DNA from: Comamonadaceae bacterium
GTDB lineage: Bacteria > Pseudomonadota > Gammaproteobacteria > Burkholderiales > Burkholderiaceae_C
Direction of reading: 5' to 3'
Length of the DNA stretch: 37,725 nucleotides
Assembly (NCBI GenBank): GCA_947372495.1
Contig: CANBTZ010000003.1
Location: 1-37,725 of the forward strand
Under the pieces are notes generated by a model. The model was not told the origin of the DNA and did no database searches. It was given only the letters and a program-made list of their open reading frames with translations. The position numbers and the translations under genes are program-made. How positions within the stretch are numbered: the first letter of the stretch is position 1; each line of letters begins with the position of its first letter. Shown piece after piece: positions 18,270 to 33,596 of this stretch.

Positions 18270-19598
18270 TCAGAGGGACTTGGCGACCAAACGGCTCGCG
18301 GGAAAACTCAGCATGAACGTCGATCCGCGACCGGGCTCACTGTCGATGCGCAATTGCCCACCGTGGCGCTGCACCACATGCTTGGTGATGGCCAACCCCA
18401 AGCCGGTGCCCCCAGTTTCGCGTGAACGGCTGCGGTCCACGCGGTAAAACCGCTCGGACAGCCGAGGCAAATGCTCAGGCGCAATGCCCGGGCCGGTGTC
18501 TTTCACTGAAAAAACCACCTGGTCATCTTCAGTGCGAGACCAAGCGATGCGGATCGTGCCGCCAGCCGGGGTGTAGCGCACCGCGTTGTTGGCCAAGTTG
18601 GACATGGCGCTGAGCAGCTCGTTGCGTGAGCCAGACAAACACCAATCAGGCACGGGCTCCAACACCAAAGTGTGCACAGGCCCCGTCGATTCGGGGTCTT
18701 GCAAGGCCGACAGGGCCAAGGCATCGTCGCGCACCTGCAGCGTCAAAGGCGCCAGCGCCACGGGCTCGCCTTTGCCGGGCAAGGGGCTGCCTTCCAACTG
18801 AGACAGGATCAGCAAATCGCTCACCAAGGTCTGCATTCGGCTGGCTTGCACGGCCATCAAATCCAAAAAGTGATGCTGCTCATCTGGGTCTAAGGGCAAA
18901 CTCTGCAAAGTTTCTACAAAGCCGCTCAGCACGGTCAGAGGCGTTCGGATTTCGTGCGACACATTGGCCACAAAATCACGGCGCATGATCTCGGCTTGGT
19001 GCACCGCAGTGATGTCACGGGTCAGCAGCAGTTGCTGTCCGTCCCCGTAACGGTGCAACTGCACCGACAACTTGACGCTCTTGGTCAGCGTGGGCGATCG
19101 ACCTTCGATGACGACTTCGCCATCGTGCTTGTCTTGCGTGAAATAACGCGAAAAAACCGGGTCTCGCACCATGTGCACCACGTGTTGCAGATGGTCTCTG
19201 TGAGAGTCGATGCCCAAGTGCAAAGCTGCCGTGTCATTGCACCACTCGATGCGTCCCTCTTTGTCCAGCAAGGTCACCCCATTGGGCGAGGCCTGAATGG
19301 CTTGCAAAAAATGCTGCAAACGGTCCGCATGCACTTGTACTTGCTGGTCTCGCTGCTGCAGCAAGCGGCGCATGCGGTCAGCCAAATCACGCCACAGTCC
19401 TTTGAGGACGGGCTGGTTCGCCACCTGCCCGGCGCGCAGCCAGACTTCAAGACGGTGGGCACGCCACAGCTGCTGAAGAACCCAGCCCCAGCTGACCAGC
19501 GCCACCATGGCCAATGCGGCGGTCCAGCCGCCGTACCACCAAGCGGCCCCTGCGGCCACCAAGCTCCAAAAAATCAGCGAAACCAGATGCGATGCCAT
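18270..19598 (-). CDS. phoR: Phosphate-regulon sensor histidine kinase PhoR
   Basis: PhoR phosphorylates PhoB when external phosphate is low and is silenced through Pst-PhoU when it is high. The 442-residue product has two N-terminal membrane helices (about 4-45), a PAS domain (about 90-200, ASPNGVTLLDKEGRIEWCNDTA) and a HisKA domain with the phospho-accepting His215 in VSHEIRTPL. The ATPase domain has the N box NLANNAVRYTP (about 334-344), G1 DTGPGIA (367-373) and G2 GTGLGLA (398-404). It follows phoB after three bases and ends the pst-pho operon. Confidence 0.97.
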   Translation of the reverse strand: MASHLVSLIFWSLVAAGAAWWYGGWTAALAMVALVSWGWVLQQLWRAHRLEVWLRAGQVANQPVLKGLWRDLADRMRRLLQQRDQQVQVHADRLQHFLQAIQASPNGVTLLDKEGRIEWCNDTAALHLGIDSHRDHLQHVVHMVRDPVFSRYFTQDKHDGEVVIEGRSPTLTKSVKLSVQLHRYGDGQQLLLTRDITAVHQAEIMRRDFVANVSHEIRTPLTVLSGFVETLQSLPLDPDEQHHFLDLMAVQASRMQTLVSDLLILSQLEGSPLPGKGEPVALAPLTLQVRDDALALSALQDPESTGPVHTLVLEPVPDWCLSGSRNELLSAMSNLANNAVRYTPAGGTIRIAWSRTEDDQVVFSVKDTGPGIAPEHLPRLSERFYRVDRSRSRETGGTGLGLAITKHVVQRHGGQLRIDSEPGRGSTFMLSFPASRLVAKSL

Positions 19599-19601
19599 GC
19601 C

Positions 19602-20297
19602 TTAAGCCGAAGGCGAAGCGGTCAGGCGGTAACCTGCCCCACGAACAGTCTCGACCATGCGGCCGGCGTTGCCCAGAGACTCACGCAAGCGCTTGACATG
19701 CACATCGACCGTGCGCTCTTCGATGTAAACATGGTCGCCCCAGACCTTGTCGAGCAACATGCCCCGGCTGTGCACGCGTTCAGGGTGGCGCATCAGGTAT
19801 TGCAGCAATTTGAACTCGGTAGGTCCAATTTTGAGAGGTTGCTCGGCCCAGTTCACACGGTGGGTGTCGGCGTCCAGACTCAGCTCGCCGATGCTCACCA
19901 CGCCCCCGCCTTGTTCAGGCGCGCGGCGGCGCAGCACCGCACGAATGCGCGCCAGCAACTCCCGTGGAGAAAACGGTTTGACAATGTAATCGTCCGCCCC
20001 CGCATCGAGCCCAGCCACGCGGTCAGGTTCGTCGCCTCGGGCGGTGATCATCAAAATCGGCACGGCCTTGCTGCGTGCAGACGAACGCCAGCGCTTGGCC
20101 AGACTCAGGCCGCTCTCGCCGGGGAGCATCCAGTCCAGCAAGATCACATCGGGCAGCACTTCGTCCACCTCGCGCAAGGCCGATTCAGCGTCCATCGCAC
20201 ACACCGGTTGGAAGCCGTTGTGGCGCAGGTTCACGGCGATCAGCTCGGCAATGGCCGGCTCATCTTCAACAATAAGGATGCGAGGCAGGTTTCTCAT
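19602..20297 (-). CDS. phoB: Phosphate-regulon response regulator PhoB
   Basis: PhoB binds Pho boxes and activates phosphate-starvation genes after phosphorylation. The 231-residue product has the receiver domain with acidic pocket Glu11/Asp12 (VEDEPA), phospho-acceptor Asp55 (VILLDWMLPG) and the conserved Lys in VKPFSPRELLARI. An OmpR-type winged helix follows, with FKLLQYLMRHPERVHSRGMLLDKVWGDHVYIEERTVDVHVKRLRESL. Its ATG overlaps the phoU stop by four bases. It is the natural regulator for the Pho-box-like sites found before pstS, ppx and the acyltransferase operon in this window. Confidence 0.97.
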   Translation of the reverse strand: MRNLPRILIVEDEPAIAELIAVNLRHNGFQPVCAMDAESALREVDEVLPDVILLDWMLPGESGLSLAKRWRSSARSKAVPILMITARGDEPDRVAGLDAGADDYIVKPFSPRELLARIRAVLRRRAPEQGGGVVSIGELSLDADTHRVNWAEQPLKIGPTEFKLLQYLMRHPERVHSRGMLLDKVWGDHVYIEERTVDVHVKRLRESLGNAGRMVETVRGAGYRLTASPSA

Positions 20298-24869: not shown

Positions 24870-24903
24870 ACTTTATGACTTGATTGTGACAACTTCGTGT
24901 CAA
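24870..24903 (-). promoter_or_regulatory. Pho box and -10 element of the pst operon
   Basis: Reading the minus strand, half-sites TTGACAC, TTGTCAC and AAGTCAT follow each other at exactly 11-base steps (24903-24875), matching the tandem CTGTCAT units of PhoB sites. Ten bases after the second unit comes TAAAGT (24875-24870), a 4/6 match to a -10 box. The same ten-base distance is found at E. coli pstS. The predicted transcript would have a leader of about 65 bases. Half-site pattern and spacing are seen; PhoB binding is inferred. Confidence 0.82.
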
Positions 24904-25005: not shown

Positions 25006-25039
25006 ATGTCACATCGGTGAAAAATTAACGTCACATAAT
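25006..25039 (+). promoter_or_regulatory. Candidate Pho-box-like promoter of ppx
   Basis: ATGTCAC at 25006 and ACGTCAC at 25028 are two 11-base steps apart, with a poor half-site GTGAAAA between them at 25017. CATAAT at 25034 is a 5/6 -10 box and lies ten bases after the first two units, as at the pst promoter on the other strand. The second half-site matches the consensus at only three of seven positions, so the -10 is better supported than the PhoB site. Confidence 0.45.
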
Positions 25040-27509: not shown

Positions 27510-29585
27510 TCAAGATTTTCCGTAGCGCGCCATCAATGCCGCCTGTGCGCCCGGCCCGGGGTGCAAAAGGGCTGCACGTTCGTAATGGCCATCGGCTTGC
27601 ATGTCCCAAGCATCGCGCTGGTCGTACATGTAGGCGAGCAAACATTCGTCGATGATGCGTTGGCGCAGCGCAGGGTCTTGCACAGGCCAAGCCACTTCGA
27701 TGCGGCGCATCATGTTCCGGTTCATCCAGTCGGCGCTCGACAGGTACAGCGTCTCTTGCTCGCCCGCCCTGAAATAAGACACGCGAGAGTGTTCCAGCAA
27801 TTGACCAATGACAGAACGCACCTTGATGTTGTCGGTCTGCCCCGGTAAGCCCGCAGGCAACATGCAAGCGCCTCGAACGATCAGGTCAATGCGAACACCG
27901 GCTTGGCCCGCTTCCATCAGGGCCAAAATCAAGGGCTCATCGGTGAGTGCATTCATCTTCAGCACAATGCGCGAGTCCTGACCCTGCTGAGCGGCTTTTT
28001 TGACGTCGCTGATGGCCCGCAGCATGCGCGCATGCAAGCTGAATGGGGCAACGCACAGGCGATGCATTCTTGCCAAGGGGTTTTGGCTGGCCAGGTGAAC
28101 GAAGAGCTGCTCCATGTCGCCTGTGATCTTTGGATCTGCCGTGAGGTAACTGATGTCGGTGTACAGCCGGGCGGTGCGCGGGTTGTAGTTGCCTGTGGAC
28201 AAATGGCCATAGCGGCGCAAGTGCCGGCCTTCGCGGCGGGTCACCAGCAGCATTTTGGCGTGGGTCTTGAGGCCGACCACACCGTAGACCACCTGCACAC
28301 CAATCGATTCGAGTTGTTCTGCCCAATTGATGTTGGCTTCTTCGTCAAAACGGGCCTTGAGTTCAACGACGGCAGTGACTTCTTTGCCACGTCGAACAGC
28401 CTCGCGCAGCAAATTCATCATCGCCGGGTCGCTGCCCGTGCGGTAGATGGTCTGCTGAATGGCCAAGACATCGGGGTCTTCAACCGCTTCTTTCAAAAAA
28501 GCGAGCACACCATCAAAACTCTCAAAAGGTTGATGGATGACCACGTCGCCTTGGCGCATGCGCGCCATGATCGCGCCGTGTTTGGGCAATTCGCTTGGGA
28601 AACTGGCCTGGTAAGGCGCAAACAACAAAGCGGGTCTGTCCACCAAATCAATCAGCTGTGTCAAGCGCACCAAGTTGACCGGGCCATTGACCCGAAACAA
28701 GGCTTGCTCGGGCAACTCAAACTGTTGCATCAAAAAGTCGGACAACTGCGGTGCGCAGTTCGAAGACACCTCAAGGCGAACCGCTTGACCATAGTGGCGG
28801 TGTTGCAAGCCCTGGCGCAAGGCGGTGCGCAGGTTGAGCACCTCGTCCTCATCGACCGCCAGGTCTGAATGACGGGTCACCCTGAATTGCGAAAATTGAT
28901 CGACCTCTCGGCCATTGAACAGCTCAGGCAGATGGGCTCGGATCACACTGGAGAGCAGCACAAAGGTCTTGCCGCTCTCACTGAGGCGATCGGGCAAACG
29001 GATCAAACGCGGCAAGACACGGGGCACCTTGACGATGGCGATTTCATTGCTGCGGCCGAAGGCGTCCTTGCCCTTGAGGTGCACGATGAAGTTCAGTGAC
29101 TTGTTGGCCACCTGCGGCATGGGGTGAGACGGGTCCAGGCTGACGGGGATCAGCAAAGGCTTGACGTCGTGGTTGAAGTACGACTTGACCCAACGCCTTT
29201 GCGCCGCATTGCGCTCACCATGCGACAGGATGCGGATGCCTTCTTTTTCAAACGCAGGCAACAACTCTTGGTTGTACAAACGGTACTGTTCGTCCACCAT
29301 GGCGCGTGCGCGCTCGGCGATGGCCAGCAAGCTACGGCGACTGTAGGCACCTTCGTCGATGTCGTGCTGCGCTGCCGCCACATGTGGCTCGGCACGGACC
29401 TCAAAAAACTCGTCCAGATTCGAAGAAACAATGCACAGGTAACGCAAGCGCTCGAGCAAGGGGACGTCATGGCGACGCGCACCATCGAGCACACGCTCAT
29501 TGAACGCCAAAATGCTCAGGTCACGGTCCAGCAATGGAGGGAGTGAGCCGCGCTCCAAACGTGCGCTGTTGGCTGATTCAGCCAT
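27510..29585 (-). CDS. ppk: Polyphosphate kinase 1
   Basis: Ppk1 polymerises the gamma-phosphate of ATP into polyphosphate. From ATG 29585 (GGGGAAG ribosome site six bases before) the product has 691 residues; the track's start is a TTG six codons upstream. Domains are N (about 10-110, LLDRDLSILAFNERVL), head, and two phospholipase-D-like catalytic halves. His442 in GLKTHAKMLL and His599 in LLEHSRVSYF are 157 residues apart, exactly like the catalytic His435 and His592 of the E. coli enzyme. HLSTGNYNPRTARLYTDISYLTAD is also present. It follows the glycosyltransferase gene after 39 bases and is probably read from the Pho-box promoter 2.9 kb upstream. Confidence 0.97.
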   Translation of the reverse strand: MAESANSARLERGSLPPLLDRDLSILAFNERVLDGARRHDVPLLERLRYLCIVSSNLDEFFEVRAEPHVAAAQHDIDEGAYSRRSLLAIAERARAMVDEQYRLYNQELLPAFEKEGIRILSHGERNAAQRRWVKSYFNHDVKPLLIPVSLDPSHPMPQVANKSLNFIVHLKGKDAFGRSNEIAIVKVPRVLPRLIRLPDRLSESGKTFVLLSSVIRAHLPELFNGREVDQFSQFRVTRHSDLAVDEDEVLNLRTALRQGLQHRHYGQAVRLEVSSNCAPQLSDFLMQQFELPEQALFRVNGPVNLVRLTQLIDLVDRPALLFAPYQASFPSELPKHGAIMARMRQGDVVIHQPFESFDGVLAFLKEAVEDPDVLAIQQTIYRTGSDPAMMNLLREAVRRGKEVTAVVELKARFDEEANINWAEQLESIGVQVVYGVVGLKTHAKMLLVTRREGRHLRRYGHLSTGNYNPRTARLYTDISYLTADPKITGDMEQLFVHLASQNPLARMHRLCVAPFSLHARMLRAISDVKKAAQQGQDSRIVLKMNALTDEPLILALMEAGQAGVRIDLIVRGACMLPAGLPGQTDNIKVRSVIGQLLEHSRVSYFRAGEQETLYLSSADWMNRNMMRRIEVAWPVQDPALRQRIIDECLLAYMYDQRDAWDMQADGHYERAALLHPGPGAQAALMARYGKS

Positions 29586-29624
29586 GTTGTCTTCCCCAAT
29601 CAAGTCAATTCGATGACCGATTGT

Positions 29625-30701
29625 TCATGTTGTTGGTGACAGCAGTGTGACAGCAGGAAGTGCCTGCCCCCGCTTGGCATGCACCGATACCAGGTTTGAG
29701 GTAAAGAGGGCCGCGGCAGCATCCCAGCCAAAGGCTTCAGCACGCAGCCGTGCCTGCGCACGGGGCAAGGTCAGGGCGCGCAAGGTGGCCGTCTGTAGAT
29801 CCGCGTCCAGCACGCCGCCCATGGGCTCACCCTGGTCTGCACCCATTACTTGCAGTGGGCCGTCGACCGGGTAAGCCGCCACGGGGGTGCCGGTGGCCAT
29901 GGCCTCGAGCATCACCAAGCCAAAGGTTTCGCTGCGCGACGGGAACACAAACACATCGGCAGCAGCGTAGACCTTGGCCAACTCGTCTCGCGGCAAAACC
30001 CCCATCCAATGCACGTCGGGGAAGCGTGATTGCAGGCTGGTCTCCAATGGGCCCACGCCACACACCATTTTGGTGCCGGGCAATTCGAGCTTTAGAAATG
30101 CCTCGATGTTTTTTTCGTAAGAAATTCGACCCACAAACAAAGACAGCGGCCGGGGCAAGTGCGCCAGGTAATCCAAAACCAGCGGGCGCTCGTGAAACCC
30201 AAACAAGCGGGTGTCTACCCCATGGGTCCAGGGTTTGAGCTGCTTGAATTGGCGCTTGTGCAGCATCTCCAAAACGCCCTGTGTGGGCACCATGACCGCA
30301 GACGAAGGCTTGTGAAAGTGCCTGAACAAGGCATAGCCCCAAGACAAGGGCACACGCAAAGCGGAGTGGAGGATCTCCGGGAACTTGGTGTGAAAAGCGG
30401 TGCTGAACGCCCAGCCTTTTTTCAGGCATATTTTTCTGGCTGCCCAGCCCAACGGGCCTTCCGTGGCCAAGTGAACGGCATCCGGCTGCAAGTCGTCGAG
30501 CATGCGGGCCAGCATTTTGGCTGGGCGCACCGCCAAGTCGATGCCCACGTAGCCAGGGCAAGGACGACGCTCAAACAAGCCAGGGTGAATCACCTCCACC
30601 TGCACCCCCATCGCGTTCAGTGAGGTGACCAATTCGTGCAGCGTGGTCACCACCCCATTGACTTGGGGATGCCAGGCATCGGTGATGAGCGCCAGTTTCA
30701 T
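29625..30701 (-). CDS. GT4-family glycosyltransferase, possible diacylglycerol glycosyltransferase (Agt-like)
   Basis: The 358-residue product is a GT-B fold enzyme of family GT4. The N-terminal acceptor half opens [21 protein letters not shown] with the glycine loop NGVV. The donor half has [17 protein letters not shown] and the E-x7-E region [29 protein letters not shown]. No signal peptide is present, so it acts on the inner leaflet. Its ATG overlaps the metallophosphoesterase stop by four bases. In phosphate-starved marine and soil bacteria a plcP gene is followed by such a glycosyltransferase (Agt) that glycosylates the diacylglycerol released by PlcP. I infer the same here. Mannosyltransferase for another lipid is the alternative. 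Confidence 0.88.
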
Positions 30702-31591
30702 GCAGCGACCCCTTGAGGCAAAGACACCGCGTTCACTGTCAAGGGCCCAGCCCCCCAGTGGATGATTTCCAGTCGGCCATCCATGTGCTCGACCAAGGCG
30801 GTGCGGCTTTCCACCCAGTCGCCATCGTTGCAGTACAGAACGCCTTCGACTTCGCGGATTTCAGCGTGGTGAATGTGACCACAAACCACACCGTCGTAGC
30901 CACGGCGGCGGGTTTCGTGCGCCACAGCCACTTCAAAGTCGGAAATGAAGTTCACAGCCTTCTTGACCTTGTGCTTGAGGTAGGCAGACAAAGACCAGTA
31001 TTCGAGCCCCAAACGGCCACGCATGCTGTTGAGGTAACGGTTCAATTTGAGTGTCAACTCGTACAACCAATCGCCCAAGTAAGCCAGCCACTTGGCGCAC
31101 TGGATCACGCCATCAAAATGGTCACCGTGGATGACCCACAAGCGTTGGCCCTGTGCGGTGGTGTGAACCGCCTCTTGCAGAATGTCCACGCCGCCAAACG
31201 CATGCCCCACAAACGCACGCGCAAATTCGTCGTGGTTGCCGGGCACATAAATGACTCGGCAACCCTTGCGGGCGCGGCGCAGCAGCTTTTGAACCACGTC
31301 GTTGTGGCTTTGAGGCCAGAACCAACGGCGGCGCAGCTGCCAGCCGTCCACGATGTCACCCACCAGGTACAGCGTTTCACTGGAGTGCGCCTTCAGGAAC
31401 TCGAGCAAAGCGTCTGCCTGAAAGCCCGGGGTGCCAATGTGCAGGTCAGAAATGAAAATCGCCCGCAGGCGTTGACGTCCAGCGGGCGATTCATCCTCCG
31501 GCAACTCCGGCTTTCGGTCGGATGCAAGCGGCAGATCCAGGTTCATGCCATCGGGCATGGCGCGAGCCGCCCACTGCGTTTGCGGCTTCAT
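30698..31591 (-). CDS. LpxH/PlcP-family metallophosphoesterase, probable phospholipase C PlcP
   Basis: The 297-residue product is a two-metal calcineurin-like phosphoesterase. Metal-ligand blocks are complete: SDLHIG (Asp49, His51), VGDIVDGW (Asp79), PGNHDEF (Asn119, His120), HGDHFD (155-160) and CGHIHHA (His239, His241). By similarity alone it would be called UDP-2,3-diacylglucosamine diphosphatase (LpxH). But it has an N-terminal extension of about 40 residues, is longer than E. coli LpxH (240), and lies in a Pho-box operon with an OlsB-like gene, a GT4 enzyme and ppk. This fits PlcP, the phospholipase C that strips head groups in phosphate starvation. Whether the genome has a separate lpxH or lpxI decides the matter. 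Confidence 0.88.
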
Positions 31592-32433
31592 CAGGCACCT
31601 CCCAAAAAGTGCTTTTTGTAGCGGGCGGGCATGTCGGCGATGCGCATCATCATGGGCAAATCGGCCGTGTTGAAGTCCGGATCCCAGGCGGGTGCGCCCA
31701 GCACTTTGGCGCCCAATCGCAAGTAACCTTTGATCAGTGCGGGTGGCTCGGTGTGGAGCGTGTGATCCAGCTCATCGACGGGCAGGGGCAATCGCGGCAA
31801 CACATGGCACTCGATTGGCGCCAAGTGTGTCTGCTTGAGTTGGTGCCAAATGCTGGCGGCCAGATCACCACTGATCACGCCGTTGTGCAGCATCGGGATG
31901 CTGGCGCAACCGATCATCACATCGAGTTGGTTGCGCACCATGAATTCGGTCAATGCGCCCCACAGGGCCATGATCACGCCACCGTGGCGGTGCTCGGGGT
32001 GCACACAGCTGCGACCCAACTCGACCATGCGTTCGCGCATGCCGCGCAAACGAACCAGATCAAATTCGGTATCGCTGTAGGTGCTGCCAGCGCGCTTGGC
32101 TTGGGCCGGGGTCAAGACACGGTAGGTGCCCACCACTTGAGCCGTAGCCACATCGCGCACCAGCAGGTGCTCACAGTAGTCGTCAAACAAATCCACGTCG
32201 TGCCCGGCGATGGTGGTCGCCAGGCGCGCACCCATTTCGCCTGCAAAGACGTGGTACCTCAGTCGCTGTGCCTCACGGACTTCATCGAGGTGCCGGGCCC
32301 AGCTGACTTCAATGCCTGCAGAGGCCGCCTTGGCCACGAACGTTTGAGGTGCAACAGTTGATCCCGGATGAAGTGACCCCCGTGGCAACTGGATCGGCGA
32401 CAAATCGAACGTGGGGTTGGGCAACTCTTTCAC
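31591..32433 (-). CDS. OlsB-like GNAT N-acyltransferase (ornithine-lipid type)
   Basis: The product resembles OlsB, which transfers a 3-hydroxyacyl chain from ACP to the alpha-amino group of ornithine, the first step to ornithine lipids. Family landmarks are REAQRLRYHVFAGEMGARL, FDDYCEHLLVRD, GTYRVLTPAQAKRAG, FDLVRLRGMRERMVELGRSCVHPEHRHGGVIMALWGAL and LIKGYLRLGAKVLGAPAWDPDFNTADLPMMMRI. I choose GTG 32433 (280 residues) because AAGGA lies six bases before it and the predicted Pho-type transcript starts near 32457. ATG 32472, the track start, lacks a ribosome site and would fall upstream of that transcript. Its stop overlaps the next start by one base. Partner OlsA is not in the window. Confidence 0.85.
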   Translation of the reverse strand: MKELPNPTFDLSPIQLPRGSLHPGSTVAPQTFVAKAASAGIEVSWARHLDEVREAQRLRYHVFAGEMGARLATTIAGHDVDLFDDYCEHLLVRDVATAQVVGTYRVLTPAQAKRAGSTYSDTEFDLVRLRGMRERMVELGRSCVHPEHRHGGVIMALWGALTEFMVRNQLDVMIGCASIPMLHNGVISGDLAASIWHQLKQTHLAPIECHVLPRLPLPVDELDHTLHTEPPALIKGYLRLGAKVLGAPAWDPDFNTADLPMMMRIADMPARYKKHFLGGA

Positions 32434-32463
32434 AGCAGGTCCTTCTCGTATGACATGACCTGC

Positions 32464-32519
32464 ATCTTCCATTTCGGCAATGACATTCGTGTGTCAAATC
32501 AATGAAATTTCCTTGACTT
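32464..32519 (-). promoter_or_regulatory. Tandem Pho-box array before the acyltransferase-plcP-agt-ppk-sixA operon
   Basis: On the minus strand, units AAGTCAA, ATTTCAT, TTGACAC and ATGTCAT follow each other at exactly 11-base steps (32519 to 32480), matching CTGTCAT at four, five, four and six of seven positions. TTGACAC is identical to the first unit at pstS. Ten bases after the last unit is GAAGAT (32469-32464), a weak -10 (3/6) at the distance seen in the pst promoter. The pattern and phase are seen directly; PhoB control is inferred. Confidence 0.8.
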
Positions 32520-32603
32520 TGCCGTCTGTGAAAAAAGGGAAATGCCCACACGCCTGCACGGACCCGTGCGGCTTGCCATGCCGACCTGACATGCCCACCT
32601 GAA

Positions 32604-33596
32604 TCAGTGCGGCGCGATGTCCACCACCACGTTGCCAATCGACTGGCCCGCCTCCACGGCCTGATGCGCCTGAACCATTTGGTCCAAGGCAAAGCGTGGG
32701 CCGATGGTGTGCTTGAGCGCACCTTGCTCCAGCAACGCTGTCAAGCGGGCAATGGCCAAGGCGCGGTCCGAGGGTGTCAGTTCGTACACCAGAAAGAATT
32801 TCACACCCAGAGAGTTGAACAACCAAGGGCGGTACTCGAAGTTTTGCTGCAAAGCGTTGGAGCCGTAGCAAACCACTTGCCCATGGGACTTCAACACATC
32901 GGCGGCCCAGCCTGCCGTCGAAGAAAAGTCCATGTCGATGATGGCCGACACGCCCTGCCCTTGCGTCAGGGTTTTGACGCGCTCAGGCACGGATTCTGTT
33001 TTGTAGAAAATCGCCTCTTGCATGCCTGCGGCACGCGCATGATCGGCTTTGGCTGGTGAACCCACAGTGCCGATCACACGGCCGCCCGCCAAGGTGACCA
33101 GTTGCGTGATGTAGTGCCCCACGGCCGAAGAAGCCCCAGTCACCAACACCGTCTGACCACGCAAGTCGCCCACCAAGCGCTCAGCCCAGGTCACGGCCTG
33201 AATGGCCGTGAGGGCCGGAATGCCAAAGCAAGCCCCAGCGGCAAAGTCGGTTTCATCAGGCAACCGAACCGCTTGCGCTTCAGGCACCGCGATGTATTCG
33301 CAAGCGGTGCCCATGGCACGCTGCCATTGCCCGTTCCAAACCCAAACCCGTTCGCCCACGCGAGACGCCGCCACACCCGCCCCCACGCGATCGATGACGC
33401 CTGCGCCATCGCTGTGGGGCACGATGTGGGGGTCTGTCACCGCTTTGGCGCGGCGCGACTTCACATCAGAAGGGTTGACCCCCGAAGTGACCAAGCGCAC
33501 GCGCACCTCGCCCGGACCGGGCTCAGGGGTGGGCAACTCACCCACTTGCAACACCTCGTTCGCATCGCCATTGCGGCTGTACCAAGTGGCTTTCAT
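32604..33596 (-). CDS. Zinc-type alcohol dehydrogenase/quinone oxidoreductase family (NADPH-dependent)
   Basis: The 330-residue product is a medium-chain dehydrogenase/reductase of the quinone-oxidoreductase branch. The GroES-like N-terminal domain has GVNPSDVKSRRA and PHSDGAGVIDRVGAGV but lacks the structural-zinc Cys cluster. The Rossmann domain has VLVTGASSAVGHYITQLVTLAGGRVIGTVGS (about 148-180), the nucleotide-binding loop of NADPH quinone reductases. It ends with QAHQAVEAGQSIGNVVVDI. It follows the thiolase gene after 38 bases and may be co-transcribed. The substrate is not evident. Confidence 0.92.
   Translation of the reverse strand: MKATWYSRNGDANEVLQVGELPTPEPGPGEVRVRLVTSGVNPSDVKSRRAKAVTDPHIVPHSDGAGVIDRVGAGVAASRVGERVWVWNGQWQRAMGTACEYIAVPEAQAVRLPDETDFAAGACFGIPALTAIQAVTWAERLVGDLRGQTVLVTGASSAVGHYITQLVTLAGGRVIGTVGSPAKADHARAAGMQEAIFYKTESVPERVKTLTQGQGVSAIIDMDFSSTAGWAADVLKSHGQVVCYGSNALQQNFEYRPWLFNSLGVKFFLVYELTPSDRALAIARLTALLEQGALKHTIGPRFALDQMVQAHQAVEAGQSIGNVVVDIAPH

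Follow-up and report, generated by a model that had tools for sequence, protein, structure and literature searches.

Four direct repeats of 7 bases form two tandem Pho boxes (minus strand, 32480..32519) in front of an olsB-like N-acyltransferase gene, in the stretch of 37,725 nucleotides which was analyzed as a whole (the window). This array was confirmed as genuine and beyond chance. It is very probably an operator of PhoB, predicted to switch on genes for phosphorus-free membrane lipids under phosphate scarcity. The minus strand of the window carries, in order, olsB-like, plcP-like, agt-like, and ppk genes, and farther on pstS, other pst genes, phoU, phoB, and phoR.

The DNA comes from a freshwater bacterium related to Limnohabitans; among named organisms, Limnohabitans radicicola JUR4 has the olsB-like gene closest to the one described here (90 percent). 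Limnohabitans species and related bacteria are frequent in fresh water, where phosphorus is often in limiting supply. In this group, the array appears to put the replacement of membrane lipids under the phosphate regulon.

Structure of the Array

The direct reading of the minus strand showed the units AAGTCAA (32519–32513), ATTTCAT (32508–32502), TTGACAC (32497–32491), and ATGTCAT (32486–32480). A 4-base gap lies behind each 7-base unit, that is, AAGTCAA-4-ATTTCAT-4-TTGACAC-4-ATGTCAT, and the exact 11-base phase described in the initial annotation is thus borne out for all four half-sites. The array of four units scored 13.7. Shuffling the 170-base intergenic region 5,000 times by dinucleotides never reached this value, while the score of the array's best pair alone was matched in 34 out of 5,000. 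Spacings of 8–10 and 12–16 bases at the same position gave scores below −11, and only a spacing of 11 yields an array there. No fifth unit was found on either side of the array.

Compared with the E. coli consensus CTGTCAT, the units agree in 4, 5, 4, and 6 of the 7 positions, respectively. The two distal units are weak when taken singly, and therefore the case for the array rests on its phase and conservation. The heptamer TTGACAC had also been put forward as identical to a unit at pstS. It is indeed present there (24903–24897), but the identity alone means little, since the minus strand of the window carries seven copies of TTGACAC (the plus strand has none).

Matrix Searches of the Window and the Genome

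Expectation-maximization on 29 pstS upstream regions of the family, excluding the window's own pstS, yielded a de novo 18-base matrix, which reads as TGTCACAtaacTGTCACA. Its top positions on both strands of the window were pstS 24891 (score 23.8), ppk 29652 (22.2), pstS 24902 (18.0), and the olsB array at 32496 (14.0). A matrix trained on pstS promoters had been proposed as a check, and the array was recovered by it as the fourth of all window positions. The next-best position outside pstS, ppk, and olsB reached 8.1, against 14.0 for the proximal pair of the array, which is thus similar to a box found at an undisputed Pho gene within its own clade.

The reference site at pstS (minus strand, 24875..24903) consists of TTGACAC, TTGTCAC, and AAGTCAT, together with TAAAGT at 24875–24870. 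The second Pho box of the window, CTGTCAC-4-CTGTCAC (minus strand, 29636..29653), is located within the last codons of agt, ahead of ppk, with AACAAT (29625–29620) ten bases beyond. This box is stronger than the olsB array and was overlooked in the initial annotation. A ppk box scoring at least 12 is present in 25 of 37 relatives.

The window is contig C3 of a draft genome of 2.8 Mb, in which the strict pattern TGWCAY-N5-TGTCAY has just four matches, each of them at phosphate genes: pstS, ppk, the olsB array, and a DUF47-pit gene pair; the reversed control pattern has two matches in the same genome. For a fifth, looser match (contig C96), no gene start was found on brief inspection.

Promoter Layout

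The -10-like hexamer GAAGAT (minus strand, 32464..32469) lies 10 bases past the last unit, and a -35 element is missing from its usual place. The same distance from a unit pair to a -10-like hexamer had been noticed at both promoters, and it holds for GAAGAT at olsB and for TAAAGT (24875–24870) at pstS. Taken alone, GAAGAT is a poor -10. Its second (A, offset 50) and sixth (T, offset 54) positions, however, are invariant in the 65 arrays of relatives (65/65), and the distance to the -10 element is therefore fixed. Counted from the T of the last TGTCA-type unit, this A and T stand at offsets 17 and 21, and the offsets are identical at pstS (TAAAGT) and ppk (AACAAT) of the window.

No canonical sigma-70 -35/-10 promoter was found in 32380–32640, which fits a promoter that requires an activator. 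The TTGACA of unit 3 was considered as a -35 element and rejected: It is placed 22 bases from GAAGAT, in a region where no canonical sigma-70 promoter occurs. A terminator-like stem-loop (minus strand, 32544..32563) follows the upstream oxidoreductase gene, leaving about 25 bases to the array; the search returned this one against 0.2 expected.

Conservation of the Array in Relatives

The family set comprised 89 loci, including the window's own, and an array was counted when four units scored at least 9 within 220 bases of olsB. At a spacing of 11, arrays were found in 66 of the 89 loci; at spacings of 8–10 and 12–16 pooled, in a single one. The matrix was trained within the same family as these loci, and since the loci are related, the counts are not independent events. 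Coding and reversed sequences gave no array, and the opposite strand gave seven, to which the self-similarity of TGTCACA/TGTGACA is expected to contribute. The same selection by best score applies to the controls for spacing, coding, and reversed sequence, which are all but empty nonetheless, and the -10 element lies outside the matrix.

In a set of 80 named loci (Limnohabitans, Curvibacter, Rhodoferax, and others), which overlaps the family set in part, 43 reach this threshold, and no locus does so at another spacing. Most loci below it either have an inserted gene or keep four units in phase at lower strength. Relatives with weak or two-unit sites also exist (e.g., L074 and L090). In comparison with L. 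radicicola, the units are largely kept and the spacers altered.

In other families of the order, for which the pstS-trained matrix is less suited, 15 of 40 loci pass, none of them at another spacing, and the half-site drifts toward GTAAC. Loss of the repeats in relatives that keep the operon had been named as evidence against a Pho box. On the contrary, the array is kept in the genus and the family, and the site is conserved across the order, in altered form outside the family.

In several Comamonadaceae, a phoX-type alkaline phosphatase gene is inserted between the array and olsB. In all nine such loci (L130–L138), the array stands before phoX; the phoX-type identity was tested with PF05787 at one locus and is based on the motif NIQHPGE or a similar one in the other eight.

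The Genes Downstream of the Array

The olsB-like gene (minus strand, 31591..32433) encodes an N-acyltransferase with the GNAT domain Acetyltransf_5 (PF13444, 118.7 bits), which is the sole copy of this domain in the genome. Its closest models are the two NCBIfam OlsB equivalogs, both modeled on other lineages, against which it scored 163.7 of 350 and 150.8 of 320 bits; as the cut-offs are missed, the gene is called OlsB-like only. Its start was revised to GTG 32433 (MKELP...), where the proteins of relatives open with MKELP from an ATG. The start ATG 32472 was rejected, as transcription probably begins downstream of it and the corresponding ATG in L. radicicola is out of frame.

The plcP-like metallophosphoesterase gene (minus strand, 30698..31591; PF12850/PF00149) is a candidate for the release of diacylglycerol from phospholipid. 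All metallophosphoesterase motifs are present in its translation (SDLHIG, GDIVDG, GNHDE, HGDHFD, and GHIHH). It was rejected as LpxH, since the LpxH model gave 39 bits for it versus 178 for a separate candidate on contig C19. Thus, the motifs, the distinction from LpxH, the agt gene behind it, and the Pho box before the cluster all agree with PlcP. The agt-like GT4 glycosyltransferase gene (minus strand, 29625..30701; PF13439/PF00534) is proposed to act in glycolipid synthesis from diacylglycerol, and the NCBIfam model that fits its product best, one for a lipid GlcN-PG synthase, is matched far below the cut-off. The polyphosphate kinase 1 gene ppk (minus strand, 27510..29603) reached 867 bits with TIGR03705 (cut-off 466).

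The gene order olsB-plcP-agt-ppk is found in 39 of the 71 named loci with enough flank, and olsB-plcP-ppk in 19 of them. Probably, olsB-plcP-agt constitute a lipid-remodelling operon which turns phospholipids into phosphorus-free lipids. The lipid products are not certain, because OlsB misses the equivalog cut-offs and no model is specific for Agt. The array had been said to change how the downstream genes should be read. This is the case for the "acyltransferase," which becomes the OlsB-type head of a probable lipid-remodelling operon, and for its start, which moves to GTG 32433.

An inverted repeat, GCAGGTC/GACCTGC, surrounds the ribosome-binding site of olsB (minus strand, 32433–32463). In some relatives, complementarity is present with a different sequence. 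A hairpin over this ribosome-binding site in the olsB leader was considered and set aside: Complementarity exceeded that of swapped pairs (0 of 5,000 permutations, kinship ignored), but the effect is small and limited to the clade.

Proposed Mechanism and Alternative Explanations

The regulator proposed to bind the array is encoded in the window. PhoB (minus strand, 19602..20297) reached 330.3 bits with TIGR02154 (cut-off 296.2) and PhoR (minus strand, 18270–19598) 374.1 with TIGR02966 (cut-off 334.2). The DNA-binding domain of this PhoB aligns with E. coli PhoB 1gxp (E 7e-33), and RTVDVH..RLR and TVRG.GYR are kept. The reading of the array as a Pho box is supported by its conservation, by the pstS-trained matrix, and by PhoB and PhoR above the NCBIfam cut-offs.

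When phosphate is scarce, PhoR would phosphorylate PhoB, and phosphorylated PhoB would line up head to tail along the four direct repeats, always on the same face of the helix. The two tandem Pho boxes would then stand in for the -35 element of the olsB-plcP-agt promoter, and with a constant ten bases between the last unit and the -10, sigma-70 RNA polymerase would be recruited. OlsB would begin the ornithine lipid, PlcP would remove the phosphate head group of phospholipids, and Agt would glycosylate diacylglycerol. Through the second Pho box, ppk may also be responsive. For E. coli PhoB, head-to-tail binding on 11-base units and the contact with sigma-70 are established (PMC4415409), and a Pho box is expected to keep a strict distance to the core promoter elements (PMC10294691). 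From these properties, the position of the array, and the homology of PhoB, we infer that olsB-plcP-agt are activated at low phosphate.

The number of units which the operator needs allows for a narrower explanation: The site would be a real PhoB site in which the proximal pair TTGACAC-ATGTCAT alone works, whereas the distal units would be remnants or fine-tune the affinity. This is conceivable but rather unlikely. It agrees with the 18-base matrix, which gives the proximal pair 14.0 and the distal pairs 3.5 and 4.5, and with the two or three units carried by pstS and ppk. However, the G, T, C, and A of unit 1 (1.48, 1.72, 1.89, and 1.80 bits) are equally conserved to those of unit 4 (1.53, 1.53, 1.89, and 1.89), in arrays picked by best score, which favors conserved C and A in the units. 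Moreover, the recurring arrangement, in the family as well as in a fair share of the order's other families, has four units rather than two.

PhoB is a dual regulator with an effect set by the position of its site (PMC10294691), and it could accordingly repress at the array, or chiefly regulate something other than olsB. Both are very improbable: The array is just upstream of a conserved -10 without a -35, which is an activating position, the gene products are of use only at phosphate scarcity, and the terminator-like element separates the array from the upstream gene. Chance repeats in an intergenic stretch have a next to negligible probability. Although the half-sites are degenerate and the shuffles did at times reach the score of the best pair, they never reached that of the four-unit array, the exact phase is kept in most family loci, and the -10 is fixed.

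Comparison with Known Systems

The pstS promoter of E. coli has multiple tandem Pho boxes. In ugp of E. coli, more than one Pho box in 11-base phase replaces the -35 element (PMC4415409), as is predicted here. Compared with these tandem-box promoters, the target here is a lipid operon and the half-sites are further from CTGTCAT.

Pho boxes before olsB have already been predicted in print for Burkholderia sensu lato, where a second matrix placed them in all 43 genomes (PMC7814305), and for Acinetobacter, with expression data (PMC11828411). They resemble the present case in gene family, regulator, and the 18-base direct-repeat box. In these systems, phosphate-dependent ornithine or other aminolipids were observed. 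The four units, the fixed -10, and the continuation of the operon with plcP, agt, and ppk are features of the present system.

Similarly, Pho boxes at plcP clusters are known from marine bacteria (PMC4796936), and PlcP-Agt lipid remodelling at phosphate limitation has been demonstrated experimentally in Phaeobacter, Pseudomonas aeruginosa, and Methylosinus (PMC4796936, PMC8528852, PMC9239053). As here, plcP is followed by agt with a Pho box upstream (PMC4796936, PMC8528852; plcP-agt also in PMC9239053). The hosts of those clusters are Alphaproteobacteria, Pseudomonas, and methanotrophs, in contrast to Comamonadaceae, where olsB comes first and ppk last, with its own Pho box. The present work adds the four-unit layout as seen across the clade, the Pho box at ppk, and the revised olsB start GTG 32433. 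The Comamonadaceae operon, the clade-wide layout, and the separate ppk box were not found in the open-access papers searched, a weak negative as few subscription journals were covered.

Tentatively, the olsB promoter of the order might have a fixed design of four half-sites, unlike the two or three units at pstS and ppk, and this design might set a threshold or timing of its own; if so, phosphate import would come first and the dismantling of the membrane later, and the common control of plcP and ppk might route lipid phosphate into polyphosphate. The matrix and the fixed promoter layout could be used for reading Pho regulons in the family and, after adaptation, in the Burkholderiales.

Additional Pho Boxes

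Within the stretch examined, no Pho box was found ahead of phoX in the bacterium's own genome. Divergent from pstS, TGTCACA-4-TGAAAAA-4-CGTCACA (plus strand, 25007–25035) precedes ppx; its middle unit is poor. Clear boxes are present on the ppx side of pstS/ppx in several relatives.

Operons of the DUF47-pit type are repressed by PhoB in rhizobia. On contig C29 (minus strand, 2699–2715), a Pho box is located directly ahead of genes for a DUF47 (PhoU-like) protein and a pit-type phosphate transporter (L126), which were named by inspection of the translated sequences. At this pit site, the final -10 position is C, not T.
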